NCBI GenBank assembly: GCA_951640165.1 | Contig: OX621265.1 | Location: 21,217,001-21,281,000 of the forward strand | DNA: 64,000 nt | Origin: Pseudoips prasinana | Lineage: Eukaryota; Arthropoda; Insecta; Lepidoptera; Nolidae | Direction of reading: 5' to 3' | Shown: positions 2,100-30,500 of the stretch, piece after piece | Layout of the letters: every line of letters starts with the position of its first letter | Position numbering within the stretch: the stretch's first letter is position 1 | Position numbers and translations under genes: made by a program | The notes under the pieces: model-generated | The model's input: the letters and a program-made list of their open reading frames with translations, nothing else | The model's database searches: none | Told to the model about the DNA's origin: nothing

Positions 2100-3690
2100 C
2101 AAAAGAAACACTCACACCTAGGTCATAAGTCTCTGCATAGCAGGGTACTTTATAAACATGACTGTGTGGCTACCTATTTACTATTATATAATTATTATTA
2201 ATTATGCACATATATACATATATATATATAACATATATACATAAACATACCATATATTATATTTACTAAATATATTTAATACACCTACATAGTAATATAA
2301 CATAATATTTCATACATACAAATGTTTACTATACTTAATTATTAATTTATTTCTAATTGCCTTGCCTCACAATCGTATCGGTCATTATAATAAGAATATA
2401 AATTGTACGACATAAATTGCATAGGAGACCGGTCGCCGCAGGCGCATATAACTGGTTCGATATTATTGTTTGGAACATTCGGGTAGTCATGCGACGGCTC
2501 TGAGACGCAAGCCCGTGTCACCTCGCTTACTGCCTACCGCGCTTAATTACGTACATTCTTTTAATTGTTCCTATTTTCTGTATATTTCTTTTCTATCTGA
2601 CTTAATTCTTTCTTCTGAACTATTTTGTGAGTGTGCTGTGCTTTCCAATAAACTTTCTTCTGTGCTTGTGTACCTATTGAATTTCTTCTGTGCTTGTGTA
2701 CCTATTGACTTTCTTCTGTGCTTGTGTACCTATTGACTTTCTTCTGTGCTTGTGTATCTATTGACTTTCTTCTGTGCTTGTGTACCTATTGACTTCCTTC
2801 TGTGCTTGTGTACCAATTGACTTTCTTCTGTGCTTGTGTACCTATTGACTTTCTTCTGTGCTTGTGTACCTATTGACTTCCTTCTGTGCTTGTGTACCAA
2901 TTGACTTTCTTCTGTGCTTGTGTACCTATTGACTTTCTTCTGTGCTTGTGTACCTATTGACTTTCTTCTGTTCTTGTGTACCTATTGACTTTCTTCTGTT
3001 CTTGTGTACCTATTGACTTTCTTTTGTGCTTGTGTACCTATTGACTTTCTTCTGTGCTTGTGTACCTATTGACTTCCTTCTGTGCTTGTGTACCAATTGA
3101 CTTTCTTCTGTGCTTGTGTACCTATTGACTTTCTTCTGTGCTTGTGTACCTATTGACTTCCTTCTGTGCTTGTGTACCAATTGACTTTCTTCTGTGCTTG
3201 TGTACCTATTGACTTTCTTCTGTGCTTGTGTACCTATTGACTTTCTTCTGTTCTTGTGTACCTATTGACTTTCTTCTGTTCTTGTGTACCTATTGACTTT
3301 CTTTTGTGCTTGTGTACCTATTAACATTCTTCTGTGCTTGTGTACCTATTGACTTTCTTCTGTGCTTGTGTACCTATTGACTTTCTTCTGTGCTTGTGTA
3401 CCTATTGACTTTCTTCTGTGCTTGTGTACCTATTGACTTTCTTCTGTTCTTGTGTACCTGTTGACTTTCTTTTGTGCTTGTGTACCTATTGACATTCTTC
3501 TGTGCTTGTGTACCTATTGACTTTCTTCTGTGCTTGTGTACCTATTGACTTTCTTCTGTGCTTGTGTACCTATTGACTTTCTTCTAACCACCAACTATCA
3601 AAAACAACCTGCACCGCATCCCCATAATTGTTTATAGGTAAAGTACCCTGCTATGCAGAGACTTGTGGGCGTTCTTTTTTAAATAAAATA
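2100..3690. mobile_element. TIR element carrying a minisatellite
   Basis: Left sequence 2128-2152 (agtctctgcatagcagggta...) is the exact reverse complement of 3639-3663, with weaker matching outward to about 2100 and 3690. The interior has no transposase. It contains a short AT-rich segment, an apparent poly(A)-signal-like ccaataaac, and the 28-bp minisatellite. Likely a non-autonomous DNA element. Confidence 0.55.
2652..3585. repeat. 28-bp minisatellite, about 33 copies
   Basis: Unit ttcttctgtgcttgtgtacc + tattgact, period 28 bp. Variants (ttccttctg, accaattg, tgttcttg, gacattc) recur in blocks, indicating higher-order duplication of several-unit blocks. Confidence 0.93.
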
Positions 3691-6348: not shown

Positions 6349-6850
6349 ATTTAGGGCTTTTACACATGGTGCAGAACAAGTTGCACAAAATATTTTTTTA
6401 ATATTTTTAATTATTAATTTGTTGAATATTAAATATTTAATATATTTACACTATTTATGATGATATTGCTAATTATTTATTCTACTTCGTCAGGGGTCGT
6501 CTCGTCTTCAATTTGTACCTGAAAATAAATAAATATAACAAAAATTATTGTGACAGTTTTTATTGCAAATTAACCTACATTTATATAAAGTTGAAATCAA
6601 TATCTCACACTCAAGTCGGTAATGTCTTGCAGTGAAAAAATATAACTTGAAACAACGTAACCTTAAAAAATATGTCACAAATCCTTTTCGATAATTACTA
6701 ACGCCATCTCTTATCGAGCATTTGGAATCATAATTCTAGCAAAAAACAACGTAAGATTGCGAGTTGTTTTTAAAATTTACTTTATAGTTCAAGATAAGAT
6801 ATAAGTGGATACAAACATGCCGAATTGTAGATCAGAACCGAAGGAGACTG
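6349..6850. other. AT-rich downstream flank of Sam50
   Basis: No gene recognised. If the signal at 6852-6857 is used, cleavage of the Sam50 transcript would fall at about 6825-6840. Confidence 0.4.
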
Positions 6851-6851
6851 A

Positions 6852-6857
6852 TTTATT
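6852..6857 (-). terminator. Candidate Sam50 poly(A) signal AATAAA
   Basis: AATAAA on the minus strand, 34 bp beyond the array's last unit. No AATAAA or ATTAAA occurs in the 164-bp unit, so this is the first canonical signal after the functional stop. If used, the mRNA would carry about 5.5 kb of array as 3' UTR. Confidence 0.6.
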
Positions 6858-6890
6858 AGTGGATAGGTATAGTGTGACTATGTCGGCCCC

Positions 6891-9800
6891 GGCGCACGCA
6901 CACCCGGTACTGTGTGTGTGTGTGTGTGACGTACCGTAGCGACACTACAAGAAGTTAGCTCCCACGCCGAACTGTATGCCCGGCGCCGCCACGTCGTGCG
7001 GGCGCGCGCGCAGCGGCACGCAGTAGTTGAGCTCGAGGCGCGCGGCGCGGCCCAGGCGCACGCACAGCCGGTACTGTGTGTGTGTGTGTGTGACGTACCG
7101 TAGCGACACTACAAGAAGTTAGCTCCCACGCCGAACTGTATGCCCGGCGCCGCCACGTCGTGCGGGCGCGCGCGCAGCGGCACGCAGTAGTTGAGCTCGA
7201 GGCGCGCGGCGCGGCCCAGGCGCACGCACACCCGGTACTGTGTGTGTGTGTGTGTGACGTACCGTAGCGACACTACAAGAAGTTAGCTCCCACGCCGAAC
7301 TGTATGCCCGGCGCCGCCACGTCGTGCGGGCGCGCGCGCAGCGGCACGCAGTAGTTGAGCTCGAGGCGCGCGGCGCGGCCCAGGCGCACGCACAGCCGGT
7401 ACTGTGTGTGTGTGTGTGTGACGTACCGTAGCGACACTACAAGAAGTTAGCTCCCACGCCGAACTGTATGCCCGGCGCCGCCACGTCGTGCGGGCGCGCG
7501 CGCAGCGGCACGCAGTAGTTGAGCTCGAGGCGCGCGGCGCGGCCCAGGCGCACGCACACCCGGTACTGTGTGTGTGTGTGTGTGACGTACCGTAGCGACA
7601 CTACAAGAAGTTAGCTCCCACGCCGAACTGTATGCCCGGCGCCGCCACGTCGTGCGGGCGCGCGCGCAGCGGCACGCAGTAGTTGAGCTCGAGGCGCGCG
7701 GCGCGGCCCAGGCGCACGCACACCCGGTACTGTGTGTGTGTGTGTGTGACGTACCGTAGCGACACTACAAGAAGTTAGCTCCCACGCCGAACTGTATGCC
7801 CGGCGCCGCCACGTCGTGCGGGCGCGCGCGCAGCGGCACGCAGTAGTTGAGCTCGAGGCGCGCGGCGCGGCCCAGGCGCACGCACAGCCGGTACTGTGTG
7901 TGTGTGTGTGTGACGTACCGTAGCGACACTACAAGAAGTTAGCTCCCACGCCGAACTGTATGCCCGGCGCCGCCACGTCGTGCGGGCGCGCGCGCAGCGG
8001 CACGCAGTAGTTGAGCTCGAGGCGCGCGGCGCGGCCCAGGCGCACGCACACCCGGTACTGTGTGTGTGTGTGTGTGACGTACCGTAGCGACACTACAAGA
8101 AGTTAGCTCCCACGCCGAACTGTATGCCCGGCGCCGCCACGTCGTGCGGGCGCGCGCGCAGCGGCACGCAGTAGTTGAGCTCGAGGCGCGCGGCGCGGCC
8201 CAGGCGCACGCACACCCGGTACTGTGTGTGTGTGTGTGTGACGTACCGTAGCGACACTACAAGAAGTTAGCTCCCACGCCGAACTGTATGCCCGGCGCCG
8301 CCACGTCGTGCGGGCGCGCGCGCAGCGGCACGCAGTAGTTGAGCTCGAGGCGCGCGGCGCGGCCCAGGCGCACGCACACCCGGTACTGTGTGTGTGTGTG
8401 TGTGACGTACCGTAGCGACACTACAAGAAGTTAGCTCCCACGCCGAACTGTATGCCCGGCGCCGCCACGTCGTGCGGGCGCGCGCGCAGCGGCACGCAGT
8501 AGTTGAGCTCGAGGCGCGCGGCGCGGCCCAGGCGCACGCACACCCGGTACTGTGTGTGTGTGTGTGTGACGTACCGTAGCGACACTACAAGAAGTTAGCT
8601 CCCACGCCGAACTGTATGCCCGGCGCCGCCACGTCGTGCGGGCGCGCGCGCAGCGGCACGCAGTAGTTGAGCTCGAGGCGCGCGGCGCGGCCCAGGCGCA
8701 CGCACACCCGGTACTGTGTGTGTGTGTGTGTGACGTACCGTAGCGACACTACAAGAAGTTAGCTCCCACGCCGAACTGTATGCCCGGCGCCGCCACGTCG
8801 TGCGGGCGCGCGCGCAGCGGCACGCAGTAGTTGAGCTCGAGGCGCGCGGCGCGGCCCAGGCGCACGCACACCCGGTACTGTGTGTGTGTGTGTGTGACGT
8901 ACCGTAGCGACACTACAAGAAGTTAGCTCCCACGCCGAACTGTATGCCCGGCGCCGCCACGTCGTGCGGGCGCGCGCGCAGCGGCACGCAGTAGTTGAGC
9001 TCGAGGCGCGCGGCGCGGCCCAGGCGCACGCACACCCGGTACTGTGTGTGTGTGTGTGTGACGTACCGTAGCGACACTACAAGAAGTTAGCTCCCACGCC
9101 GAACTGTATGCCCGGCGCCGCCACGTCGTGCGGGCGCGCGCGCAGCGGCACGCAGTAGTTGAGCTCGAGGCGCGCGGCGCGGCCCAGGCGCACGCACACC
9201 CGGTACTGTGTGTGTGTGTGTGTGACGTACCGTAGCGACACTACAAGAAGTTAGCTCCCACGCCGAACTGTATGCCCGGCGCCGCCACGTCGTGCGGGCG
9301 CGCGCGCAGCGGCACGCAGTAGTTGAGCTCGAGGCGCGCGGCGCGGCCCAGGCGCACGCACACCCGGTACTGTGTGTGTGTGTGTGTGACGTACCGTAGC
9401 GACACTACAAGAAGTTAGCTCCCACGCCGAACTGTATGCCCGGCGCCGCCACGTCGTGCGGGCGCGCGCGCAGCGGCACGCAGTAGTTGAGCTCGAGGCG
9501 CGCGGCGCGGCCCAGGCGCACGCACACCCGGTACTGTGTGTGTGTGTGTGTGACGTACCGTAGCGACACTACAAGAAGTTAGCTCCCACGCCGAACTGTA
9601 TGCCCGGCGCCGCCACGTCGTGCGGGCGCGCGCGCAGCGGCACGCAGTAGTTGAGCTCGAGGCGCGCGGCGCGGCCCAGGCGCACGCACACCCGGTACTG
9701 TGTGTGTGTGTGTGTGACGTACCGTAGCGACACTACAAGAAGTTAGCTCCCACGCCGAACTGTATGCCCGGCGCCGCCACGTCGTGCGGGCGCGCGCGCA

Positions 9801-12478
9801 GCGGCACGCAGTAGTTGAGCTCGAGGCGCGCGGCGCGGCCCAGGCGCACGCACACCCGGTACTGTGTGTGTGTGTGTGTGACGTACCGTAGCGACACTAC
9901 AAGAAGTTAGCTCCCACGCCGAACTGTATGCCCGGCGCCGCCACGTCGTGCGGGCGCGCGCGCAGCGGCACGCAGTAGTTGAGCTCGAGGCGCGCGGCGC
10001 GGCCCAGGCGCACGCACACCCGGTACTGTGTGTGTGTGTGTGTGACGTACCGTAGCGACACTACAAGAAGTTAGCTCCCACGCCGAACTGTATGCCCGGC
10101 GCCGCCACGTCGTGCGGGCGCGCGCGCAGCGGCACGCAGTAGTTGAGCTCGAGGCGCGCGGCGCGGCCCAGGCGCACGCACACCCGGTACTGTGTGTGTG
10201 TGTGTGTGACGTACCGTAGCGACACTACAAGAAGTTAGCTCCCACGCCGAACTGTATGCCCGGCGCCGCCACGTCGTGCGGGCGCGCGCGCAGCGGCACG
10301 CAGTAGTTGAGCTCGAGGCGCGCGGCGCGGCCCAGGCGCACGCACACCCGGTACTGTGTGTGTGTGTGTGTGACGTACCGTAGCGACACTACAAGAAGTT
10401 AGCTCCCACGCCGAACTGTATGCCCGGCGCCGCCACGTCGTGCGGGCGCGCGCGCAGCGGCACGCAGTAGTTGAGCTCGAGGCGCGCGGCGCGGCCCAGG
10501 CGCACGCACACCCGGTACTGTGTGTGTGTGTGTGTGACGTACCGTAGCGACACTACAAGAAGTTAGCTCCCACGCCGAACTGTATGCCCGGCGCCGCCAC
10601 GTCGTGCGGGCGCGCGCGCAGCGGCACGCAGTAGTTGAGCTCGAGGCGCGCGGCGCGGCCCAGGCGCACGCACACCCGGTACTGTGTGTGTGTGTGTGTG
10701 ACGTACCGTAGCGACACTACAAGAAGTTAGCTCCCACGCCGAACTGTATGCCCGGCGCCGCCACGTCGTGCGGGCGCGCGCGCAGCGGCACGCAGTAGTT
10801 GAGCTCGAGGCGCGCGGCGCGGCCCAGGCGCACGCACACCCGGTACTGTGTGTGTGTGTGTGTGACGTACCGTAGCGACACTACAAGAAGTTAGCTCCCA
10901 CGCCGAACTGTATGCCCGGCGCCGCCACGTCGTGCGGGCGCGCGCGCAGCGGCACGCAGTAGTTGAGCTCGAGGCGCGCGGCGCGGCCCAGGCGCACGCA
11001 CACCCGGTACTGTGTGTGTGTGTGTGTGACGTACCGTAGCGACACTACAAGAAGTTAGCTCCCACGCCGAACTGTATGCCCGGCGCCGCCACGTCGTGCG
11101 GGCGCGCGCGCAGCGGCACGCAGTAGTTGAGCTCGAGGCGCGCGGCGCGGCCCAGGCGCACGCACACCCGGTACTGTGTGTGTGTGTGTGTGACGTACCG
11201 TAGCGACACTACAAGAAGTTAGCTCCCACGCCGAACTGTATGCCCGGCGCCGCCACGTCGTGCGGGCGCGCGCGCAGCGGCACGCAGTAGTTGAGCTCGA
11301 GGCGCGCGGCGCGGCCCAGGCGCACGCACACCCGGTACTGTGTGTGTGTGTGTGTGACGTACCGTAGCGACACTACAAGAAGTTAGCTCCCACGCCGAAC
11401 TGTATGCCCGGCGCCGCCACGTCGTGCGGGCGCGCGCGCAGCGGCACGCAGTAGTTGAGCTCGAGGCGCGCGGCGCGGCCCAGGCGCACGCACACCCGGT
11501 ACTGTGTGTGTGTGTGTGTGACGTACCGTAGCGACACTACAAGAAGTTAGCTCCCACGCCGAACTGTATGCCCGGCGCCGCCACGTCGTGCGGGCGCGCG
11601 CGCAGCGGCACGCAGTAGTTGAGCTCGAGGCGCGCGGCGCGGCCCAGGCGCACGCACACCCGGTACTGTGTGTGTGTGTGTGTGACGTACCGTAGCGACA
11701 CTACAAGAAGTTAGCTCCCACGCCGAACTGTATGCCCGGCGCCGCCACGTCGTGCGGGCGCGCGCGCAGCGGCACGCAGTAGTTGAGCTCGAGGCGCGCG
11801 GCGCGGCCCAGGCGCACGCACACCCGGTACTGTGTGTGTGTGTGTGTGACGTACCGTAGCGACACTACAAGAAGTTAGCTCCCACGCCGAACTGTATGCC
11901 CGGCGCCGCCACGTCGTGCGGGCGCGCGCGCAGCGGCACGCAGTAGTTGAGCTCGAGGCGCGCGGCGCGGCCCAGGCGCACGCACACCCGGTACTGTGTG
12001 TGTGTGTGTGTGACGTACCGTAGCGACACTACAAGAAGTTAGCTCCCACGCCGAACTGTATGCCCGGCGCCGCCACGTCGTGCGGGCGCGCGCGCAGCGG
12101 CACGCAGTAGTTGAGCTCGAGGCGCGCGGCGCGGCCCAGGCGCACGCACACCCGGTACTGTGTGTGTGTGTGTGTGACGTACCGTAGCGACACTACAAGA
12201 AGTTAGCTCCCACGCCGAACTGTATGCCCGGCGCCGCCACGTCGTGCGGGCGCGCGCGCAGCGGCACGCAGTAGTTGAGCTCGAGGCGCGCGGCGCGGCC
12301 CAGGCGCACGCACACCCGGTACTGTGTGTGTGTGTGTGTGACGTACCGTAGCGACACTACAAGAAGTTAGCTCCCACGCCGAACTGTATGCCCGGCGCCG
12401 CCACGTCGTGCGGGCGCGCGCGCAGCGGCACGCAGTAGTTGAGCTCGAGGCGCGCGGCGCGGCCCAGGCGCACGCACA
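6891..12478 (-). repeat. 164-bp tandem array of the Sam50 terminal coding exon
   Basis: The boundary motif gacgtaccgtag recurs from 6928 to 12340 at exactly 164 bp, 33 intervals, so about 34 units. On the minus strand each unit carries 120 nt encoding Sam50 residues 433-471 with the TAG stop, then 44 nt of 3' UTR containing (CA)9. By eye the units are identical except for one junction base: G instead of C at 7067, 7395 and 7887. The unit length is not divisible by three and no unit except the rightmost has the exon's 5' part or acceptor, so the extra copies cannot be translated as repeats. They lie downstream of the real stop. An assembly artefact cannot be excluded from sequence alone. Confidence 0.97.
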
Positions 12479-12562
12479 GCCCGGCGCCGCACGCCGCGCG
12501 CGCCTCGTCCACGCCGCCCAGCGCGCCTAGGGCTCCCAGCGCCCCCAGCTTACCCGACTGCT
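12357..12562 (-). CDS. Sam50: Sam50 terminal exon 11 (residues 404-471)
   Basis: Acceptor CATTGCAG|AGCAGTC; exon 10 supplies the first base of the split GAG codon. The exon opens with an Ala/Leu/Gly-rich insert ([14 protein letters not shown]), continues [10 protein letters not shown] and ends with the beta-signal QFGVGANFL then TAG at 12359-12357. Residues 433-471 plus the stop are also the first unit of the 164-bp tandem array that continues downstream, so only this copy keeps the full exon and the splice acceptor. Confidence 0.94.
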
Positions 12563-15500
12563 CTGCAATGCAAAGTATTCAGAACTTCTTACTTTGTTAT
12601 CAACCACATTCATATGGAACCATCTCGAATTCATACCCTATCGATTAAAAAAAGAATAATTGAAATCGGTCCACAAACGCCGGAGCAATTACGTAACATG
12701 CAAAACTAAAAAAAAGCGCGAGCAGCACCGTACACTCGATAGAAGTGAGCTTTTTAAATGCTCATCATAAAACGCAATGATAAATATTTAGAACATTTTC
12801 TTTTTTGTGCTTTAAACTCAAACATTCACAGCCTTATAGTTCGTAAACAAGCTTTCGACAAGGTGGACCATAAATTTCTATTAGATAAGGTTACTTATAA
12901 TGGTATCCGTGGCAACCTATTACTTTGTTTCATTACTTACATATTTACTGGTTCACAAAAGGCAGTTGTTAATGGTTTCCAATTTAACCCAATTATTGTC
13001 ACATCTGGTGTAAGGTTGGGCGATGATATATCAATGAAACGCTCTGACTGCTGGATAATAACTCACTCTTTTTTAATAAGTAAACATGCTTTATATTAAT
13101 AGGAAAGGGTGATACATACTTATGTCTAACTTACATACTACACCTCCAACGAAAGGAAAAAAAAATAAAATAATATGACAGTATTATTTTATTTACTTAC
13201 AACTAACATAGTAAATAAATCGCAGTATTATGCACTACAATTGCATGGGTTTTATTAACATCTGAATACATAGTTCTAAATGTTTGTTTTATTTAGATAA
13301 CATTACAATTTACGTAAGCAAGCATATCAATGTTTTGTATAGTTATATTGAGTAAAAGTTAAGTTGAATACAACAATTAATATAAGGTGTAAAATAGTAA
13401 AAATATGTAAAATTGTATATAATAAAAATATAATCATGAATAATATAGCTTAGTCCTATTCTTATGTACTAAATCGGTTTTACCATTATCTTTTAATATT
13501 TCAACATTTGGTGCAACATCTTTGATTACCAAGTATGGTCCATTGTAAACACTTTGAAGTTTAGTACCAGTCTCATTTCGTACAAGTATCAAGTCGTTCT
13601 CCTTATAGGTAATGGGATTACAGGTAGAATCATGTTTCTCTTTTCTTAGTATTTTACTTTGTATTAAATTTTGGTACGCTTCTTTTTGTGATGTTTGGAG
13701 TCTGTACTTCAATTCTAAGGGATAATTGTCATAGTTATAAAGTGGCTCTACTGCATTTTTATTCAAATTGGATGGTATATTACAACGTTTCCCGAATACT
13801 AACTCATACGGCGTAAATTTGGTAGCAGTATGAACAGACGTATTGTAGGCGAAGCACCAGTAGGGTAACCATGTACTCCATGAATTCGAATGGTTATCGG
13901 TTTGTATTCTTAAAAAATTACCTAAATTTTTATGAGTATTCTCTAAAGAGCCTATAGTTTGGTGATGGTATGCAGTAGAGTTAAGAGTAGTTATATTTAA
14001 TAATTTACAAGTTTCCTGGAAAATTGATGATAAAAATTCAGAACCCCTATCAGTCGCGACTCTATCTGGTATCCCAAAACGGAGTATAAAATTATTAACA
14101 AAGTTTTTCGCTATCTCATTTGAACTTTTAGAAAACATAGGATATGCCTCTACGTATTTACTTAATTCGCATTGGATAGTCAGTATATACGAATAGTTGT
14201 AGTCATCCTTATCTAATGGACCTACTACGTCAAGGAAAATTTTTTCCATTGAAGAATTCGCAGTAGTTGTTATTACCATAGGTTCTTTAATATAATGAGA
14301 ATTATGTTTCTGCTTTTGGCACTTCTCACATTTCTTAATAAATTCCTTAACATCGCGTTCAAGACCTGGCCAAAAGTAATATTTCTTGATATTTTTATAC
14401 ATTCGTCTTATACCAGCGTGGCCACTAGTTGGTAGAAGATGAAAATCATTTAATATTACTTTTTGGTCGTCTTTGTTGTCAATTATTTCAACATTGTTTA
14501 ATATACACAATCGCGGTCCGGACCAATTAGTGTAATTCTTAATTTCTTTAATTATTTTTTCTATAAATTCGTCATACATTTTACATCTTATGAAAATTAA
14601 TTCAAGTACATTTATTTTCTCGCAAAAATATCTCAGTTCCCTCACAAAAGCGGCTGGCGTCAGTTCTGATTGGGATACTGGATTTATAAACAAAGTCATT
14701 CTAGATGACGAATAACAAAACACTTTATTCTCTAATTCAATTTCATTAGACTTACGTAAGCTTTTTAGTTTATATTTACCAATAAATTTTAGTTCTACAG
14801 AATTTCTCGGTTTACTATGAATTTCTACAACTTTTGGTTGCGCAGGCCAATCGTCAGTAGGAACCATAGCACTCGGAGAATCCTGAAGGTCTAATTGTTT
14901 TTTACGTTGTGCACGTGTCATAACAGAGATAATGCTTTCATGCATAGTTTTTAAGTCTGTCGATGTAATAGGTAGGCGTGACATTGAGTCAGCTATAATA
15001 TTATCTGATCCTTTTATGTACTTTATGATGAAATCATATTCTTCAAGTAAAAGTCTAAATTTCATGAGACGACTAGAGGGATCTCGCATTGTAAATAAAT
15101 AAATAAGTGGTTTATGATCGGTTTGAATAATAAAAGTCCTACCATATAAATAAGGGCGAAAATGCTTCACAGCCCAAACTATTGCTAACAGCTCTTTTTC
15201 CACTGTGGGGTAGTTAAGTTCAGCTTTATTGAGGTTTCTGCTTGCAAACGCTATAGGTTTATTATTTTCGTTACATAAGACGGCGCCCAATGAATGTTGC
15301 GAAGCATCCGTTTGTAATATAAACTTATGGTCTGTCGAAAAATCCGGATATTGAAGTATGGGAGGTGAAGATATAATAGATTTTAACTTTAAAAATGCAT
15401 TCTGACATTTTTCGTCCCATATAAATGGCGTATTTTTCTTAGTTAAGCGCGTAAGTGGATACGCTATAAACGCAAAATTTTTGATAAATTTCCTATAATA

Positions 15501-18500
15501 GTTCGCAAACGCTACAAATCTTATCAATTCTTCTACATTGTTTGGAACTGGCCAATTGTTCAACGCTTGAATTTTTTGAGGGTCAGGTAGAACACCTTCA
15601 CCGGATATGATATGTCCTAAATATAAAATGTCTTTTTTAAGGAAATTACATTTAAGGGGATTTAATTTTAAATTGACCTGACGTAATCGAGTAAAAACAT
15701 CAATGAGATTTTTAGCGTGTCCTTCTAAGGACTTTCCAAAAACGACAAGGTCATCTAAATAAACTAGGCATTTCTCGAAAGTTAACCCTGACATGGCAAC
15801 AGTCATCATTTTTGAAAATGCATTAGGGCTTGTTTTCAACCCCATAGGCATTCTTGTCATCTGATATTGGCCTGAAACGGAAGCAGTACAATTATTGTCT
15901 GTGTTACTGTTATTTGCAATTTTATATTGACCCGAACAAAATGCTGTATATTTTCGACTTTCGGGGTCAAGGTCACATTGGTAGTACCCGCTAGAAAGGT
16001 CAAGCGTAGAAAAGTATATAGCTCCTGAAAGAGAATCCAAAATTTCGGTTATATTAGGGAGGGGAAATTTATTGTCTTGGATGTTATTGTTTAATTTTCT
16101 GTAGTCAATTACCAATCGCCACTTCCTATTGCCTAAACTATCTATTTTTTTCGGAACCAGTAACAATGGGCTAGACCATTCAGACTGGCATGGCTCAATT
16201 ATGCCTTCTCGTAACATATCACTAATCTGATCATTTACTTCACGTTTTTGGGAATATGGAATTCTATAGGGTTTACTAAATACAGGCTGAGTATTAGGTT
16301 TTAAATTAATTTGGTGTTTATAAATGTTTGTTGTGGTTAACTGGTCTCCTGGTAATAAAAATACATCTGAAAATTTTGCACATATGTTTTCAATAGTTAC
16401 TTGCTCTTCAGCATTCAAATGTTTTAAATTTAATAAGCTAAATAATTTTTTACACGATTCGAATTGACAATTTTACATTGATTAAAACTACACACATTAT
16501 ATTCGCTAACATTCTGTATGGTCGGTTGAATATTGTCAAGGGAAACCTCCTTGTCGCTTGTATTTAAAACCAAAATAGGTATCAAGCCATTTGTAGGCTT
16601 TACTAACGTACTAGCCAGAAATACTTCCTCCTGTAATTCCGAGGAACAAACTAGACATTCTTCTGTAAACGTAGTTTGTATATAATGTATCGATTCTGAT
16701 CTTGGCGGTAAAATAAAACAATGGGAACTCGATCTTAAAGGTAAAATAATGTTATTATTTAGTGTCAAAGTAGAACAATTAAGATTTAAAATAGCATTAA
16801 ATTTGGAAAGAAAATCTTGTCCTAAAATAGCATGTGCCTTACATGGCAAGGAATTAAAAACATAAAACTTATGTTCGAATGAATGACCTGGCGGATCATA
16901 ACAGTTACTAAGTGTTAAATAAACGTATCCGATTGCTTCTATTGAACCGCCTATTCCGTTTATTGTAATGGTCTCTGTATGGAGTGGAATGTTTAATCCA
17001 ACAACATGTTTATATTTAATAGCACAGATGGTTGCGCCGGTGTCTATTAGAAATGAATAGTTATATTTATCTACATATAAATCAATGCAACAAGTACTAT
17101 CGTTTGCACAAATGAAATCATTATTCACGAAAAAATTTGCTTTGTTCCACAGGCGAATTGTCATTAGTGGGTTCATCGTTCAATACACGAATATTTGGAT
17201 ATTGACGTGTCCCTCGATGACCCCTATAATTATTATTGTACCTATTATTATAGTTCGAGTACTTACCTCGGTACGATGTTGACGGACCTCGTACTTGATT
17301 CTCGAAGGCACGACCACGGCCTCGGTAGAACGTAGCACCACGGTGCATGGTTGGTCTGCTAAAGTTATTATATGTAGAAGCACCTCGAAACTGGCGAGTA
17401 GTCCCAGCATTAAAGTTACCTCTGTAATACGTAGGTTTATGATAGTTGTTACGCTTTTTATTATACGTTAAAATATCTCCAGACTGAGACGGCAACGCAA
17501 TTTCCTCATCTACCGCTGCCTGTACCGCGTCCTTCAATGAGTCAAAATTTCGTGCAGCTATTATAGTGCTAAGACGCCTATTGCGCAACCCGTCGGCAAA
17601 ACGTTTGATCGCTTGCTTTTCATTTAAGGGCTGTAAAATTTTTAAATTCTGCGTATTACCGTCGGCTTGCGCGATAGTCAGATCCATGAATATTTCGGTC
17701 AATTCTTTGCCGTAATCATCAATTGATTTTCCATCTTGCCGAACAGATTGTAGTTTATTTTGTAAAGCTACGGAACTCTTTTTAGGTAAAAGAATCGTAC
17801 GCATATCAGCTAATAATGCATCTACGGTTGTATAACTAGTATTAAGTTTCAACTTCGCGGATTGAGAAAGACGACTCTTTAAAACAAAGTTTATCAAATT
17901 TAATTTACATTGTTGACCATTCAAAATAGAACTATAATAGTCAATTCCGTCAATTAATTGTCTCGTTGATGATTCATCGTTCATGACTGGTAACAAACTT
18001 AAAGCTGTTTTTAAATTAAATTCCATTTTGGAGTCCTTTCCGTTATTTGTTGTCATACCAAATGTTTCGCTACTAGACTTATCAGATACACGTACATGTG
18101 ATTTATGACAAAATTCCTTAATCTCTAAATATAATTCTTTAATCCTATCACTATAAGATTTAATTAATGACAAACTTTCGGCACTTAATTCTTTCTTTTC
18201 TATTTGATTTTTTAAACTTGAAAATAAAACGGTGTAACTATTATACGCAACAGTTGCCTCATTGAACTTTTCTTTTAATCGTTCAGGCGTTCTTTTGTCA
18301 TAACTCAACTTAGTTAAATTCTCTTTAATTACTCTTAACTTCTCATATACATTGCTAAGTTCTTGGGCCATAATATGTCATCTTAACTAAAAAGGATAAT
18401 ATACTTAACATACAAATAAAAGTTACATAAATCGGTTACCATTGGGAGACGTACGTTCCTCGTTGAGTTACGTTTATGCGCACAGCAAAGCACAAATTTT

Positions 18501-21500
18501 GTACACACTTTTTAACACTTAGTGGCACTTATTACAGCTCTCAGTTCTTATCCACTCGGTTTTAGCTCGAAATCGTCCATGCACTGGGTAGGCTTTGTTC
18601 TGGCACACGTTGAACATCTGGTTACATCTGAAGCTCCTCGACGCCCGCGCCGGGTAAATGTTCTCCTCAAAGATTGGCGAATGATTTTTTCATCGATCCA
18701 TGCCTCATGGCAATTTTTGTAACATTTGTAAGCAAAATAAATTGCCAATATCAACAGCAAGCCAAGGATTATCATCATAACTATGCTGATCGCCGATAGA
18801 TGAAATTGTAGTTGTTCAGTACTGGCCGAATTTGAAGTCCCAATGCCATTTTGATTGATGATAACATCTTCTCTTTTTGGTGTATTAGAATTGCACATTT
18901 TTGAAGATAAAAAAAAAATGAGTCTTTAATCACGTAATGTAGTCTCAGAACCAAATTCGTAAAATGTCCACATGATGACCGAAGTGCGACCCGATGCCTC
19001 AAATACCAAACATGGCAGGGTCGCCATGTAAGGTTGGGCGATGATATATCAATGAAACGCTCTGACTGCTGGATAATAACTCACTCTTTTTTAATAAGTA
19101 AACATGCTTTATATTAATAGGAAAGGGTGATACATACTTATGTCTAACTTACATACTACACTGGTGTGCCCCAAGGCTTAATAATTGGGCCACTTTTATA
19201 TACTTCATTTACTAATGACGTTAAAACATGTTTCATCCTTTCCCAAATTATAATATACGCCGACGATATAAAAATTTACAAGACATGCGAAACCATACAA
19301 GATTGCCTACTTTTACATGAAGACATAGAGATTCTTTCGTTAGTATAATATTCCATACATAATGACCGGTAGTGCATGGTCATAACTACTGTACTATGGT
19401 ACTAAACTAATTTTAACTTTTTAACAGCATAGCTCTTATGAAAAAGACACAGCATCTTTAGGTGTGAAAGTTTAATTTTGGCGCGAAATAGGAAAAAAAA
19501 GCAAACATTAATGACACGTCCGTCGACTAATGCGCCCGTTGCGCATATTAGTGCGGAGTTTCATTAATTTGATAGTTCTATGCATGCCCTGTTCTTATCA
19601 TACAAAGTATACTAGAGAGAGATATAATAACATTTGAATTAATAGGAGTTCTCCAAGGCTCGCATTTAGGACCGAACTTTATCAACTATCTTACAGACAC
19701 ACTAAATAAACCGCGCTTATTGTACGCCGATGACCTAAAAATATATTCAACTGTAAACAATATTCATGACGCCTTATCTCTTCAGTCAGATCTTGAAATG
19801 GTCAAAGTTTGGGGTCGAAAAAACTGCATGTCTTTGAACGTCTAAAAGTGCTGCGTTATTTCCTTCACTAACAAAAGTAAAAAAGTATTACATAACTACA
19901 ACTTAAAAGGATGCGAGTTAGTAAGAAAGAACTGGGTTAAAGATCTGGGTACATTTTGATAACATGGTTAATAAAAGCCTCAAGCTGCTCGGTTTTAATG
20001 CAGAATAAGCTAGAACCTTCAAATCCTAGTTGTTTATTCTTTATTCCACTTTTATTCGGAGCATCCTTGAATATAATCGCCTTTCTACGCTAACCATAAA
20101 AACCGCAAAAGAAATGCCTACACATAATGTGCCACAGACTTGGCGTTCTGAGACAACTATAATCATTCGCCATCGAGGGAGACGATGGCTGGCCCTCACG
20201 TCATACTCGTGAACGGGTGCTGCTTGCGGTAACTGGTCGAACTGCTGCTGGGGTATTAATTTTTTTTAGGTTGAGATCCTTTTGCGCTAGCCAACTGCTC
20301 GTTGTTTTCAATTCTTTAATTTTAATATACAATTGCTAAATGTAACAATAATAGCTTAGTAACTTGCTATTTAATATTTATTTAAGGATATTAAAAATAT
20401 ATGTGACGAAACAGACCGCACGGACGGACTAATTCAAAATATTTTGTTGCTTTAATAAGCCTGGCCAATGTTTTATTCTAGTTATGCGAAAGTAATCTAG
20501 AAGAAAATACAAGAACATCTGCATTTTTACTTTTTTTATATTCCCAAAGATAGCCGAGATAATAGCAATCAAAGTACGCATTTTCGAGCGATATTATTTT
20601 AAACCGCAAGCGGCGTTCGATCGCGCTGTGACATCACGTGTCCCCTCACGCAGCGCGCCGGCCGGTTTGCGGGTACAAATCTAGGTACTATTCATTTAAT
20701 CACCGCTGCTGGTGGCTCGTACTTGCGATTTTATTACGAGAAAATTATTAGAAAATGCTGTGCAGTGCCCAAGAGTTTTTATTCCAATGTTAACACACCC
20801 AAAAAGTGATTTTAATACATCTATAAATCCTATGATAAGGAAGAAATGGATGACCGCAATACGCAGACAGGATTCAATAGGACTGAAAACTATTGCATTT
20901 TGTTATGAATATTATTTTGATGTCAATAACTATTATATTTATACTTTTCTCATGAAGCACTACGTTATCTATTGGTGCATTTTATAATCAACTTCTGACA
21001 AAGGTAGATAAACTTTTAAGTTTACCTACCTTTTGTTATTTAAGTATTAAACAATTTAATCTTATAAAAAATAGTTTATTGATCCTTCTAAATAAGAGAC
21101 ATTAATATTGTTATTATCTATCAGGAACCTTGACATCAGGATGTTATAATAAATATATAAACCAACCATGTCGTATTTTTTAAATGCGAATAAGTAATGT
21201 TGCCTAATACTGACCTAGATTAAACATGGGATATTTGGAAAAAAAATATAATAACCACGAAATATTTTATCTACTTATACAATATTTCGTTATTATTATC
21301 TACCTTTGACGTTAACCACTAATACTTAATAAGTAAAAATATGTATGTTGCATATAAATGAAGTAAAATTGACTGCAAGTGTTGCGCAGCGGCTAAGACA
21401 GTCGCCGCTGTGTCTCCGAGGTTTGCTTCCCGCGCCGGACAAGTATTTGTGTAACCCGTAAATAGTTTTTCAGTGACTGGATGTAATTTGTGTCCGTCTA

Positions 21501-24500
21501 TTATATGTTTGTAAAGTATTAAAGTAGTATTATTGTCTTTGAAAAAAAAAACGTTAAGAATGACAGTGGTATTAATCTACAGCTGTTAGCGGGCCGCTGA
21601 CTATAGTACTTACCTGCGGACGTAAGTATCCTTGGAGATGGTGTACAAAATTTTACAAACATTTTGCTAGAAATATATTAGGTCTTTACCTATGAAATTG
21701 CCGTTCTGCAGTACTGGCCATTTCAAATCAAAATAATTTTTGTTTGGCTAAGAATTCTAATTTCAAATTAATTTTATTTTAAAAACATGGATTCTTTTTT
21801 CCAAAAGTAGTCATTTCTTTATTGATTAGTGTTACATTTTCATCGCATTTCAATCTTTTTCGTCATCATGGATACGTTAAAAATTCGAGTAATTATGGAA
21901 TATGAGTACCGTCGTGGCAGCAACGCGGCACAAGCGGCACGCAACATCAACGACGTTTACGGAGCTAACACTACAAACCAACGCACCACCTGTTATTGGT
22001 TTGCTCGCTTCCGTTCTGGAAATTTCGACCTGAAAAATGAACCTCGCGGTCGTCCGAAGACTTTGGTCGACAATGACGAATTAAAGGCGGTTGTGGAAGC
22101 TGATGATACACAATCTACGGCTGAATTAGCAGCAGCTTTCGACGTTAGCGTCAAAACAATATTGGTCCATTTGCGTCAAATTGGCAAGGTAAAAAAGCTT
22201 GACAAATGGGTGCCCCACGAACTCAATGATCGCCAGCGCGAAGTACGCGTCGAGACGTGCCTTGCACTGCTCAACAGACACACAAATTAAGGAATTTTGA
22301 ACCGCATTGTTACCTGCGATGAAAAATGGATTCTGTTTGATAACCGCAAGCGCTCAGCAAGTTGGTTGGATCCTGGTTCAGCACCTAAACAATGCCCTAA
22401 ACGAAAACTTACCCCTAGAAAAGTGATGGTCACTGTTTGGTGGTCTAGCGCCGGTGTGATTCATCACAGCTTCTTACCAAACGGGGTGAGCATTACTGCA
22501 GATGTGTACTGTGAAGAACTGAGCACAATGATGGAGAAGCTGGCGCATCTCCAACCAGCATTGGTCAATCGCTCGTCTCCGCTGCTCCTGCACGACAACG
22601 CGCGACCTCATACTGCACAGCAGACGGTCTCCAAGTTGCAAGAACTGGGGTTGGAAGCTCTCCGTCATCCGCCCTACTCACCAGACCTTGCGCCTACAGA
22701 CTACTACTTTTTCCAGAATTTGGATAACTTCTTGGCGGGAAAAAAATTCAATACCCGAGAGGCAGTACAAAATGCCTTTGAAGAATTTGTTGCCTCCCGT
22801 CCAGCTGATTTCTTTAAGAAGGGCATCAATAAACTGCCACTGCGATGGCAAAGATGCATTGATTGCATGGGTGATTACTTCGATTAATACAAATAAAAAA
22901 ATTCATGAAAAAAATTCGTTTAAATTTTTTCATACAAAACGGCAATTTCATAGGTAAAGACCTATTAATAACTCAAACTCAAACTCAAATTCATTTATTC
23001 GTGTGATTTTTGGTAATACAGGGTCTTAAAATAAACATAGTTCCTCAAAAATCTGCCAAAAAAGGCGTACACGTTTGCTTTGATATTATACAATCTATAC
23101 AATAATTTGCTATACATTTTATTCTAAATTACATAAATTTGTACTCTGGAATTACATTATTATCAAATCTATCTATCATTCAATATATTAAAATATCATA
23201 TTTAGTGGCACCAAGTTTAATGTCATATTATGGTTAAAAAAAGTAATATGTCAAAGACTTAAATATTAAATTTGTCATGAAGAATTAAATATGTCAAAAT
23301 GAAATTAAATTTGAAACCCGTACAGGTCGATTAGGTGTCATTAAATACAATGTCAAGGAAATAAAATACAACATGTCATTGAATACAAATAGCTATTAGT
23401 AAATACATCTTAAATGTCATGAACTAGGAATTCGGTAATGGTATAATAGCACTTTTCATTAAGCATTATTCTTAGTTTATGTTTGAAACTAGCAAGCGGT
23501 AAATCTTTTATTACATTAGGTACTTTATTGAAAATCTTAGGTGCCATACAAAATATGCTTTTGTGCATAAGTGCGGTTTTTGCAGGTCGGAAACATAGCT
23601 CATGTCTATGTATTTGTCTTGTAGGCTTTAACCTTTGCTCAGAAGTTTTTTTAAATAAGTGAATGTTGTTTTTCACGAATAAAGCCGTCTCAAAGATGTA
23701 CAAGCAGGGTAGTGTTAAGATTTTCAGTGACGAAAAATATGGTTTGCAACTGTCAGTCTGTTTCAATTTGCATATAGATCTAATGCATTTTTTTTGAGCT
23801 TTGAATATTAATTCACTTTCACTGGAGTTGCCCCAGAAGATTATGCCATAAGATAGATAGATAACTCTTTATTGCACACCAAAGACATAAACTTAGAGTA
23901 AAAAATTACATTAAAATGGAAATAGTACAAGTGGCGGCCTTATCGCTAAAAGCGATCTCTTCCAGGCAACCGATGAATGGACCAGAACTGTTAGTGAATA
24001 GAAAGACGGGGGTAGTAGGTGGTGTACAGAACAAAAGATGAATGAATATACCGAAGGTACATTCAATAGCAGAAAATTTATTTGAATATTACGAAGTCAA
24101 TAAAATAATATAAATAAATAAATATATATATATAAATAAATATATATAATTATAGATATGTGTATATATACATATGAATACAAACATACATAAATACACA
24201 AAATGGCATTCAGAGAGTTAGATAATATTCTTTTAAGAGTTTTTTAAACACAGGAAGTGACTGGGCACGTGTTACCGACACAGGCAATGCATTCCACAGA
24301 CGAGCAGCTTGCACGGTAAAGGATTTATCATAAAATGTAGTGGAATGCATTGGTATTTTAAGGCGTAAGTTTTCTGATGATCTCAAACTTCGTGCATGCG
24401 TCTCCTTTAAGAACTGGAAGCGATCCTTAAGGTAATTTGGTGTATTAGGATTGAATAAAATATTATACAGAAGAGAAAGAATGTGCGTATTCCGGCGAAG

Positions 24501-27500
24501 GCGTATAGGAAGCCACTTGAGTTTAGTACGAAATTCAGAGACATGATCATATTTCCGTAATCCAAATATGAAACGTATACAGAAATTCTGGAGCTGCTCA
24601 AGTTTATCTAGTTGGTCCTCCGTGATATCGAGATAACTGGCATCAGCATAGTCAAGGATTGGAAGGAGAAGAGATTGGGCAAGTGCAGTTTTGGTGGCAA
24701 TCGGCAGAAAGTTACGAAGACGTCTTAGGGCCCCAGAAGACGCAAACAGTTTCCTGCTAGTTTCTTTGAGTTGAGGAGTCCAGGATAAAGTTGAATCTAT
24801 GTAGATGCCCAGGTTCTTAACTTGATCACTAAAAGGTATGGTAGTACCATCAAACATAGCCTTTGGAATTTGTGACCAATTTATCGTTGATAATTTTCTT
24901 GAACTGCCCACAACAATTACTTGGGTTTTAATAGGGTTTACCATTAGCCCGTATTTTTTGCTCCAACAAGCAATCCGACCTAAATCTTTATTAATAATAT
25001 CTATAGCTTCAGATAGCTTCTCGACTGGTGCCTGAGTATATATTTGGAGATCATCTGCATAAAGGTGGTAAGAGGAAAGTAATTGATCAGAGATAGTATT
25101 AATAAATATGGCGAAGAGTAGAGGAGAAAGCACGCCACCCTGTGGCACACCAGCACTAGAGTTACACCAAGAAGAGTAAGTATCTTCAATGAGAACCCGT
25201 TGTCGGCGACCAAACAGGTAACTACGAATCCAATCAATAGCCGTTGGAGATATGTTAATAGAGCGTAATATGGCCAGCAAAATATCATAATCGACAGTAT
25301 TAAAAGCATTGCTAAAATCTAGCAGTGCCAGAGCCGTCAGATTACCTGCCTCCATACCAAACCTAATGTCATCCGTAATTTGGAGGAGAGCCGTAGTGGT
25401 ACTGTGACCAGGGCGAAAACCGGATTGAAAGGGATTAAAAAGGTTATGTTTACAGAGGAAAGAGCTGAGCTGATGATGGATAAGACGTTCAAGGACTTTA
25501 GAAAGGAAAGGTAAAATGGAAATAGGTCGATACTCAGAGAAAGCTGTAGGATTAGGCTTCTTTGGCAATGGAATAACTTGTGCGTCTTTCCAAGAAGATG
25601 GAAAAACACCACAAGTTATGGAGAAGTTAAGGATATGGGAAATTACTGGAAGGATTTCATCAAGGATAGGGACGATCATGTTACGGCTGACATAGTCACA
25701 CCCAATAGCATTGGAGGTGATGGATGTTATGCTCTTTTTAACATCACAATCGGAAAATTGATGAAAAATAAAAGTTGGAAATTGAGGCGAAGGAAACGAA
25801 GAGAGATAATTCAGAGTATGTGCTTTAATTGTCTTATCAAATTGAGACGACGTAGAGAAATGTTGATTAATCGAGTTGATGTCTAAATCTTTAGGAATTG
25901 CGTCTTGACGAGATTTTCCAACCCCCATTTGGTTAAGAAATTTCCATACTTTAACTGGATCTCCATTTTCTATGGAGCTATGAAAATGTTGGCGTTGTGC
26001 ATTCCTACACACCTTATTGCAGTGATTCCTTATCAAAACATATTTATTCCAATTATGCTCATTATTTCGTATCTTGAATTTGCTTTTGGCGGCTGCTTTG
26101 CGATTTTGTAAAGATTTAATTCCTTCAGTGAGCCAAGGAGCAGGTTGATGTTTTAATTTTATAGCTCGTAAAGGAGCATGTTTATCGTACAAATCGATAA
26201 TCGAGGAGTTGAAAAAATTTACTTTTTCATCAATTGAATTTGATGCAAAGAGCGGCGTCCAATCAATATTGTTCGCGTCTTCACGCAGGTTAGCGATATT
26301 TATGCCACCAAAACTGCGTTGCAAAAGAACTTTGGGTTTGGCCTTAGGTGGGCGAACTTTATATGAAAGATAGAGAAGGTCGTGGTATGAAAAGGCATCA
26401 GCCGAGCACTGACCGTACTTGGCAACATGATCAGTAGAAGAAACAAGAACAAGATCAAGTAGCGATGGAGAACAGTTTGGTGAGTTATGTGTAGCACTAA
26501 GAGGGAGAAGAGAAAGGTTATTGGATTCTACCAAAGAAAGAAGCGCAGAAGAGCGGTAGTCTTGTTTAAGAATGCAAGTATTGAAATCACCCATGACTAT
26601 AGAATGACTGTAAGAATGGATAAACCTTTGCAAGAGATTACCAAAGGAAGAAAAATAATTGACACGGAGTGAAGGACTATAGTAAACTCCGAGTAATATT
26701 TTGGAATGGTGAAGCTCAAGTTCTAGAAAAAGATGCTCGCCAGCATCTGTAGGGGGTGGTTGTGCTGATATATCTAAGATGGAAAAAGAAATGTTAGTGC
26801 GGAGATATATGGCAACACCCCCACCACCGCGGGGAGTACGATCGTTTCTTATAAGTTTGAAGCCAGGTAGGGAATAAGCTGTAGTTGGTAGGCATGGTTT
26901 CAGCCATGATTCGGAGACAAGTATAGCATGTATGTTCTTACAGTCAAAACTGGCCAGCATATCGGGGAAATGAGCCGGAATACTCTGAGCGTTAATGTGT
27001 ATGACATTAAAGTTCCGAGGTACATCAGAAAAGTTAGACGCGAGTGTCTCAGCAAGAGATGGAATGCTAATAAAACTTTCATCATCACTGATGACGGAAT
27101 AGAAACTATCATTATCACTATTATTATCGGATGCCATAATAAATAAATAATATACTTAGAAATTAATATATATAAATGAATATAACTTAAGTCAAAATAT
27201 ATAAAATAAAATAATAATAATAATAAAAAAAATTACAACCTAAAAAGATAAAAACAAATAATATATGTAGGTCAGCAGTGGTCCACCCACCGGTTCAGTG
27301 TTTAAAAATTAAAATACATATATGAAGTTCTATAACATAATACAAACAGAAAATTTGACAATAAAAATAAAACACAAATAAAATAATTGCCGTGTAGTCC
27401 GTAACGTATTATTGAGTCAACGTACCCATAATAAGCGGTGACAACCGCAGGCTGATCTACAATTTTTCCTATTTTATATAATGCAAATGCAAATTTATTA

Positions 27501-30500
27501 ACTTTCATTACTAACACCGATATATGTTCTTTCCATGTAAGTTGGCTGTCGATAGTGAGGCCTAAAAATTTTGTATTTTTTACTTCTTCAATTGATTTAT
27601 TTCGAAATGTTATACTAAGGTAAGGCGTGGTCATTCTTTGATGAAAATTCATGATTTTAGTTTTGTCAAGGTTAAGGACTAATTTATTGTGTTCCAACCA
27701 GTCAACTGATTGCTCTAATGCATTGCTTATGTCATTTTTTAACTCGTTGTAATTATTTTGCTTCACAATTAAAGTACTATCGTCTGCAAACAGTGTCAAT
27801 GGATAAACTATATTTTGTGGAAAGTCATTAATATAAACAAGAAATAACAGCGGACCTAGTACGCTGCCCTGAGGTACTCCACTAGAAACATAAAGTTTTT
27901 TAGATAGGTATTTTGTTTCTATTTTAGACAACTTATTTATTCGAATAATTTCTGTATAGTGTGTCCTATTATGCAGGTAGGATTTAATTAAAGAAAGGAC
28001 ATTTCCTCTTACACCATATGCATTCAACTTATTCAATAGAATGTCATGGTTAACTAAATCGAATGCCTTCGTCATGTCCATATATATGGCCGCTATAGGG
28101 TTACGCTCATTCACATTTACAGTAATAATGTCAAGAAAATCGTATATTGCCATGTTAATAGAGTTATCTTTCCTAAAACCTTTCTGTTCTTTAGCAAACA
28201 TTTTCATTTTTTCAAGATAGTCGTAAAGGGCTTTATATATAACTTTTTCAAATATTTTAGAAAATACCGATATTAGTGCGATTGGTCTATAATTTTTAAT
28301 ATCTATTGAATCATCTTTTTTTAGTATGGGTTTTATAATTGTATTTTTTAGCTCATTAGGATATATCCCACTGCATATAGAGAGATTAATTATATAGCTG
28401 AAAAGGGGTGATATTTGTGCAGATACAAACTTAAGAACTTTAGTTCTTATATCGTCATATCCAACACTGTTTGTATTCTTTAAGTCATTAATAATGTTAT
28501 AGACTTCGTTAGGTGCAGTAGGAGCTAGAAACATCGACTGTTTACAGTAAGGCAGTTTACTTTTATTTATACTCTTCTTTAATAAATTCGATGATTAGTG
28601 TGCTTGATTTATAAAGTAATTATTAAATGCATCAGCTATGTCATCTGGTTTAGTTAATCTAATTCCGTCATGATTTATTTCCTTTATGTAGTCTTTCAAT
28701 ACAGTATATCTATTTTCATTAATTATTTGCCACGTTGTCTTGGACTTATTTTTAGATGAAGTTATTCTGTGTTTATTTTTAGCTAATTGCGTCAACTTTA
28801 TAATTTTCTTAAGTCTGGTAGAATATATTTTTAATTTAGTTATGTTATTTCTAGTTGGATTGAGTCTATGATGCCATAATAACTGCCGCTTTTTATGACT
28901 ACAGTTTTTTATGCCATGTGTTATCCAGTTCGGTTTCTTTATTGACTTAACTGTTTTTAGGATAACCGGAAAACATAAGTTATAAAATAGTACTGGCCTT
29001 AATTTTATCCTAAAATACTAGACATATCGTTAACACTTTTGAAGATTCATTCACAGAGTGAGTTTATCCTCTGCCGTTTGGTCTTATTTTGGTCGTCTAT
29101 AATGGCATTAAAATTTGGAATTATATATAAATATGAAAAGGTACTTACTTATATTTTTATTTTATATTAGTTTAGTTAGTTCTTTATTAGATTTAATAAA
29201 AAAGGCACCGAAAACAAAAAAAATAAGTAAGTAACTAAGTCGAGAGAATTATTGGTAGATTAAGAAACTTTGGATTCTTGACGCTGCATGCTAAAGTCGA
29301 TCAAAGTTTGTCAGTCGTATAAGGAAATCTTCCTCCCATGTAACCCTCTTCCAGGGTGCAGATATATGTAACTCATAAGGTATTTAAGAAGTTGATGTAA
29401 TACAATAATAACAAATTAATAAATAAAGCAATGATACAAGTACAGCGCGCGCGAGTCATCACTTCAATGTGTTTCATACGGCGCGGGGCACGAGCGCACG
29501 GAGCGACCGGTCGCGCAGCAGCTGACGTCACGCGTCGAGCGCGCAATATTTTGGAAATTTAAAAGTGTTCAAAACTTCTCATAGTCATAACTTCCGTAAT
29601 ACTGCATTGATTTACGTAAATTAAAGACTAATCTAATGCACGTAATTTAATTTTTAGCTTTTAGTGCAATATTCGCATGTGTTGGTCACCCTCATTACTG
29701 CTTTTAAACTGTGTTTAAGTAATACATTGTGAGCTTGACAAGTACAAGTGTATGTAAATACCCAAGTGCTGAATAATTTTCATTATTTCATTTTATTTAT
29801 AGGTAGGTACGACTCGCTATAACGCGCTTGGACGCTAGTTATTATTATTACGAATTCCCGGAAACCATTTACCATACTTAATGCTATACCATTTATGTAT
29901 GGTGCCACTAAAGCTAACCTGAAGATAAAACCGATATAAAATAAAATAAATACCGATATAACTTAACCGTTATATATCGGTTATATATCGGTATTTATTT
30001 TATTTTATTTTACCTGATAATAAAACCGATATAAAATAAATACTGATAAACTTAACGTTATATTATTATATCGGTTAAATTGAAACACATAAATACCGCT
30101 ACTTACCAGGCATGGTGAGGCAGCCGGCGTTGAAGAACAGATGCGAACGGAAGAGCGCGCCGATGCCGGAGCGCGCGCCCTGGAAGGGCAGCGGCGCGTA
30201 CAGGTGCAGGCCGCCCGCCCAGTACACCTGCCGGACATCAGCTAATTAGCCTCCATGACCACTAGACAAAGATCTACGCAATACTATTCCACATATCGCA
30301 GGCTATGGAGTGTGTCACCCAGTTTCTGTCATAAGCTTTAAATCATCTCTCCTTCGCTTGCGAGCTTAACCTCAAGTTTTTGGACAACCACATAGTAGTA
30401 AGTTTTTCTAATTTTGTCCTGCTGAATCTTAAAGTAACGTGCTTGGGATTGAGTTGTTCTGAGTCAACACACATGATTGTAATTAATCTTTAGTATATTT

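Follow-up and report, generated by a model that had tools for sequence, protein, structure and literature searches.

The window analyzed here is the whole 64,000-nucleotide stretch of contig OX621265.1 (assembly GCA_951640165.1, positions 21,217,001 to 21,281,000) from the nolid lepidopteran Pseudoips prasinana. Its minus strand carries the gene for SAM50, and the 3′ end of that gene lies in a tandem array of 164-bp units. The gene was modeled as follows:

12357..58062, minus strand: SAM50 gene, 11 coding exons, 471 amino acids (aa), from exon-by-exon alignment of lepidopteran proteins
58062-58042, 54716-54489, 53187-53092, 50708-50624, 48491-48362, 47348-47243, minus strand: coding exons 1 to 6
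46266-46179, 44858-44677, 43341-43189, 30227-30107, 12562-12357, minus strand: coding exons 7 to 11
12357..12562, minus strand: last coding exon (exon 11), 206 nt including the stop codon TAG at 12359-12357, from ortholog alignment

SAM50 and the tandem array at its 3′ end

SAM50 is generally regarded as an essential gene, and the C terminus of its protein would act as a beta-signal. On sequence homology, which extends to the barrel, the window gene is SAM50, a mitochondrial member of the Omp85 superfamily. The gene model is complete, with ten GT-AG introns and no internal stop over its 471 aa, and lepidopteran SAM50 proteins retrieved with the last exon as the query match the whole window gene, exon by exon. 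Among the candidates scored (the best word-sharing proteins, 7997 for the last-exon query and 7993 in a second search, which listed matches at E values of ≤1e-120), each of the two nearest full-length homologues is 85% identical to the window protein. The Pfam scan for SAM50 identity covered the last-exon piece, which matched PF01103 with an E value of 4.4e-5 and 23.6 bits, slightly below the cut-off of 24 for this piece. Solved Sam50 structures likewise align with the last exon at their C termini (7btw, E value of 1.7e-4; also 7vku and 7e4h), and a homologue, P0003, matches Sam50 in 6wuh/9nk8 with an E value of 4.4e-32. AlphaFold2 was used to model P0003 in place of the window protein, and 16 barrel strands were counted in the strand list of this model. 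Its last 40 residues, which match the repeat unit, contain the two final strands and the end of the strand preceding them. This model was built from 31 homologues, the window protein excluded, with a mean predicted local distance difference test (pLDDT) score of 74.7 and scores below 50 for the last four residues.

We placed the gene in a tree of 41 rows, comprising the window protein and 40 hand-picked, mostly full-length lepidopteran sequences out of 115 fetched proteins. The window SAM50 falls in the canonical noctuoid clade, adjoining Erebidae (two rows of Arctia, Anticarsia, and one more row; support 95/87), a position that by itself would probably point to an erebid or a close ally as the source. 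The same tree contains a second, fast-evolving SAM50 clade of eight noctuid rows (P0012, P0013, P0051, P0052, P0054, P0057, P0060, and P0061), which several noctuids have besides the canonical gene. Identity of the window gene with such a fast-evolving paralogue was rejected, as it lies outside this second clade.

A separate observation concerns the intron directly downstream of SAM50 exon 9, which holds a degenerate copy of the 3′ part of that exon at 43077-43165 on the minus strand. About 90 nt align, with a score of 46 where the best of 1000 shuffles reached 29 and with 37 to 51% protein identity in the rows seen, and the copy represents an older tandem exon duplication within SAM50.

The array was delimited by Tandem Repeats Finder and by counting an anchor sequence, and its units were numbered from the distal edge, so that unit k starts at 6883 + 164(k − 1):

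6884..12484, minus strand: tandem array, period of 164 bp, 34 copies (Tandem Repeats Finder and anchor count)
12295..12458, minus strand: unit 34, at the gene-proximal end, holding the stop codon and most of the stretch that codes for the working SAM50 C terminus
8031..12458, minus strand: units 8 to 34, 27 identical units
7047..8030, minus strand: distal units 2 to 7, with a minority, exon-like junction base in units 2, 4, and 7 (3 of 33 junctions)

An initial annotation of this DNA, made from the letters alone, had described about 34 tandem copies, all 33 spacings exactly 164 bp, and an 18-nt TG tract of constant length, and each of these observations was reproduced. The anchor count gave 34 copies between 6883 and 12458, spaced by exactly 164 bp in 33 of 33 cases, while Tandem Repeats Finder reported a period of 164 and 34.1 copies at 6884-12484, with 99% matches and 0% indels. 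The TG tract, (CA)9 on the minus strand, has the same length in 34 of 34 units. The edges of the array (6884 and 12484) are slightly wider than the 6891..12478 first given.

Read on the minus strand, one period comprises the 120 nt that encode the C-terminal end of SAM50, the TAG stop, and a further 41 nt of 3′ untranslated region (3′UTR) including (CA)9. The 7btw match, the lepidopteran alignments, and the strands of the P0003 model agree with the earlier proposal that the unit encodes the end of the SAM50 barrel with its stop and proximal 3′UTR. The further proposal that the terminal coding exon as such was amplified holds for the last 120 coding nucleotides, the stop, and the 41 nt beyond it; the first 83 of the 206 nt of exon 11 and its splice acceptor lie outside the unit and are not repeated. 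The exon numbering of that annotation, which referred to an exon 8, does not fit a model of 11 coding exons, in which the array follows exon 11 and the upstream neighbor is exon 10. Its claim that the working C terminus is itself a unit stands, as the working stop at 12359-12357 sits in gene-proximal unit 34.

Divergence among units is slight. Thirty of the 34 equal the consensus in a unit-by-unit comparison, unit 1 at the array edge is two bases off, units 2, 4, and 7 share one and the same single-base difference, and units 8 to 34 show no differences among them. The 40 codons of the coding part are kept in every unit, and the 34 coding copies vary solely at the junction, where the first codon is either CTG or GTG. 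Mean pairwise difference over all 34 units is 0.0017 per site, compared with 0.044 over 33 units of a 28-bp array that also lies in the window. The unit has a GC content of 68%, against 30 to 42% in array-free 2-kb stretches of the window, and matches to it in the rest of the window are limited to the TG tract and to short ones of 11 to 23 nt. No stop-to-stop segment of at least 110 aa was found inside the array on either strand, and therefore no long protein made of repeats is concealed there. Read out of frame, the array gives a 105-aa sequence, which matched no protein at an E value of ≤1 among 641 candidates, a result that says little about relatives since fast loss is expected.

Direct repeats, hybrid junctions, and the origin of the array

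Local alignment of one array edge against the other returned an imperfect direct repeat of 25 columns, of which one is mismatched and one gapped (score of 20, against a best of 14 in 5000 composition-keeping shuffled pairs). Its two copies are as follows:

12460..12484, minus strand: E, exon copy of the direct repeat, 25 nt, from local alignment
6884..6907, minus strand: U, 3′UTR copy of the direct repeat, 24 nt, at the distal array edge, from local alignment

The starts of E and U are 5576 bp apart, which is exactly 34 units, and therefore they lie one unit apart once 33 units are removed. The junctions into units 2, 3, 4, 7, and 34 are U-like on the 3′UTR side and E-like on the coding side, and the remaining junctions equal one of two hybrid forms in the unit comparison, so that all 33 are E/U hybrids. 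Short direct repeats thus bound the unit at E and U, with hybrid junctions in between. At one diagnostic site, the U base is present in 30 junctions and the E base in 3 (units 2, 4, and 7), a pattern that fits crossovers at two places within the repeat. The minority junctions all fall within the distal seven units (P of 0.0037 for the distal six of 33 junctions).

Minisatellites are loosely defined, in an excerpt of PMC6947457, as arrays of up to ~100 units at one place, and the 34 head-to-tail units of 164 bp at this single place fall within that definition. The same excerpt describes a model, credited to Haber and Louis, in which slippage or unequal exchange involving short direct repeats at its flanks gives rise to a minisatellite. 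We consider it probable that the SAM50 array is a 34-unit minisatellite at the 3′ end of an intact gene that likely arose by mispairing of E and U and then likely underwent recent expansion. In the single-copy ancestor, E and U would have lain one unit apart, with the AATAAA hexamer 88 nt past the stop. At birth, the 25-nt stretch of the last exon would have mispaired with the near-identical stretch of the 3′UTR, and further out-of-register exchange or slippage, recent in date, would have enlarged the array. Recent expansion or homogenization is likely because units 8 to 34 are identical. Later growth or homogenization may have been mainly gene-proximal, since the 27 identical units lie there and all three minority junctions are among the distal seven units. 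The array is most likely a young minisatellite of an ordinary kind, unusual for where it lies, and probably a tolerated passenger, not a selected device. A reading of it as a special system is not supported: uniform spacing and TG tracts of one length are expected from very recent expansion or recent homogenization, and the direct-repeat edges and hybrid junctions provide an ordinary mechanism of birth.

Under a star-like expansion with no new substitution in 34 × 164 bp, and with an assumed rate of 2.9e-9 per site per generation, the array would be younger than ~186,000 generations. The TG tract gives ~9,000 to 88,000 generations at an assumed 1e-5 to 1e-6 per tract. Homogenization would void the bound, for which the junction base shared by units 2, 4, and 7 and the pair of edge bases in unit 1 were taken to be parental and not mutations.

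Several points weigh against birth from E and U followed by recent growth. The model's flanking repeats are 5 to 10 bp, and satellites with larger units are left unexplained by it owing to distance, as described in the same excerpt (PMC6947457); the 164-bp unit falls between the model's small units and those larger ones. The clustering of minority junctions was spotted post hoc and involves three units that may descend from one event, while the base they share could be a single point mutation. U, at the distal edge, might be an end unit that was shortened and mutated instead of the ancestral partner of E. Furthermore, 27 identical units need very recent bursts or strong homogenization, and rolling-circle or break-induced replication could build such an array in one step.

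Predicted fate of the array in the SAM50 transcript and alternative explanations

The following predicted features bear on whether the transcript would carry the array:

6852..6857, minus strand: AATAAA, the first after the array, beginning 27 nt beyond the array edge
12345..12346, minus strand: GT of a donor-like site, ACG/GTACGT, 10 nt after the working stop and in every unit; prediction only
6476..6520, minus strand: strong acceptor-like site and possible 3′ terminal exon skipping the array, with AG at 6520-6519, 13 open codons, and a stop overlapping AATAAA; prediction only

Between the working stop and this first downstream AATAAA lie 33 extra copies, which put the start of the hexamer, at 6857, 5500 nt past the stop. 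None of the 11 poly(A) hexamers searched for is present in the unit. The protein would be unchanged because translation would end at the working stop. Unless the array is spliced out, all of it would form part of the mRNA as a 5.5-kb GC-rich 3′UTR.

We asked whether the array might be a new, spliced-out 3′UTR intron, an idea compatible with its probable origin as a minisatellite and one that would make the copy number of the unit irrelevant to the mRNA. Splicing out of the array is possible from the predicted sites, and we regard it as a tentative alternative with perhaps a minor share of the probability. The predicted route leads from the donor-like ACG/GTACGT either to the stop-codon acceptor of a later unit, TTCTTGTAG, or to the acceptor at 6519, with a predicted junction joining TGTCGCTACG to a later TGTCGCTACG or to position 6518. 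The donor-like GTACGT scores at the 99th percentile of GT sites in the window, and the same GTACGT opens the intron after SAM50 exon 7. Among acceptors, the stop-codon AG reaches the 94.8th percentile and the AG at 6519 the 99.85th (score of 11.1). A junction 10 nt past the stop would also escape nonsense-mediated decay, as is generally known, and intron gain by tandem duplication has been described (an excerpt of PMC4974935). However, the splice-site matrices were built from ten introns only, and the donor-like site drops to the 97th percentile once the similar donor within SAM50 itself is excluded. The unit's (CA)9 CAG is a poor acceptor (31st percentile), the branch-point-like CTAAC is unusually close to the stop-codon AG, and AT-rich DNA yields strong acceptors by chance. 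The site at 6476-6520 could be either a 3′ terminal exon of SAM50 or a chance occurrence.

Conversion within the array could rewrite the working gene, as the initial annotation suggested. A more elaborate proposal joins these two ideas: the working C terminus would co-evolve with 33 silent copies, and the array would be a reservoir for mutation and conversion behind the stop, rendered harmless as a spliced-out, copy-number-variable 3′UTR intron newly made by the tandem duplication itself. We think this combination unlikely.

Also unlikely is that the array is an assembly or library artefact, in which one or a few units were inflated in number by the assembly or by polymerase chain reaction stutter of a low-input library. 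Twenty-seven identical units and 34 equal TG tracts are extreme, as such an error might produce. On the other hand, the minority junctions are interspersed (units 2, 4, and 7) and the edge unit has bases of its own, unlike a simple looped duplication of one stretch, and the array ends coincide with the E and U repeats.

A selected regulatory array, in which 3′UTR repeats control SAM50 mRNA (its stability, small RNAs, or localization) or the end of transcription and copy number is under selection, appears very improbable. The position of the array between the stop codon and the first AATAAA, together with the GC content of the unit relative to array-free stretches, is what such a role would draw on. 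Folding of the unit argues otherwise: as RNA, it is no better than dinucleotide shuffles (z of 0.87; 160 of 200 shuffles at least as stable), and the same is true of single-strand DNA (z of 0.69; 155 of 200). The youth implied by unit identity would also have left little time for function to arise.

Finally, although each unit keeps the 40-codon coding end, we give scarcely any credence to the array as a reservoir of alternative terminal exons. The unit contains neither the true acceptor of exon 11 nor that exon's first 83 nt, and the phases of its five AGs, worked out by hand, do not fit exon 10, which ends in phase 1. Three of the AGs are out of phase (the CAG before the coding stretch and those at offsets 77 and 137), no coding sequence would remain after the stop-codon AG, and the sole in-phase AG, at offset 150, would keep the last four residues and scores −3.8.

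Neighboring elements and comparison with known systems

Other repeats and mobile elements were observed in the window. The 28-bp minisatellite used above for comparison lies at 2652-3585; nine types occur among its first 33 units, an inverted repeat of 35 to 39 nt (2124-2158 and 3629-3667) flanks it, and it looks like a minisatellite inside a mobile element. A near-perfect inverted repeat with 56-nt arms occupies 1981-2096. The last SAM50 intron contains a Ty3/gypsy-like element at 13437-18377 on the minus strand, with three long open frames: one for reverse transcriptase (RT), RNase H, and integrase, one for protease, and one whose match to gag is weak and falls slightly below the cut-off. 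No Pfam family was matched by a 125-aa frame at 18551-18925. Further RT-bearing frames lie at 24213-27155 and 32894-35116 on the minus strand and at 35427-37523 on the plus strand.

What is unusual about the SAM50 array is its place, in that the working C terminus is itself an array unit and the functional end of a conserved gene is thereby placed inside a repeat array. The array seems to catch a minisatellite at its birth, when the two parental repeats and both junction types can still be recognized. If confirmed by long reads, it would offer a natural test of two possibilities: conversion of a working coding end by its silent tandem copies, and adoption of a recent tandem duplication as a 3′UTR intron.

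No precedent for such a gene-end array was found among the matches listed in searches of mainly open-access literature; these did include a terminal-exon duplication in humans. This is reportedly a duplication of one terminal exon of LRRTM4 in one family (PMC8774418). As there, a terminal exon is present more than once; judging by the title of that report, the dozens of short tandem units at SAM50 set it apart. Human variable number tandem repeats also occur in 3′UTRs and last exons, with units that are not known to combine coding and untranslated sequence. The SAM50 array resembles them as a tandem array in the transcribed 3′ end of a gene, and it differs in that each of its units carries its own stop codon.

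A parallel to the possible intron is the gain described in an excerpt of PMC4974935, where one duplication was made and a new intron was detected. Here, too, an intron could result from the tandem duplication of sequence that contains donor-like and acceptor-like sites; unlike in that case as excerpted, there are 33 extra copies, they lie in a 3′UTR, and splicing is predicted from site scores. A trend of change toward one end of a minisatellite is described in PMC2599865 as not significant, and we place no weight on it.

A further comparison is with the Haber and Louis model of birth as excerpted in PMC6947457. In both, two short direct repeats bound the unit, the junctions are hybrids, and later exchange proceeds in the longer homology so created. 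The SAM50 array departs from the model in its repeats of 24 to 25 nt instead of 5 to 10 and in its 164-bp unit, and also in what the unit contains: it spans a coding end, a stop codon, and 3′UTR, so that the working end of the gene is a member of the array.

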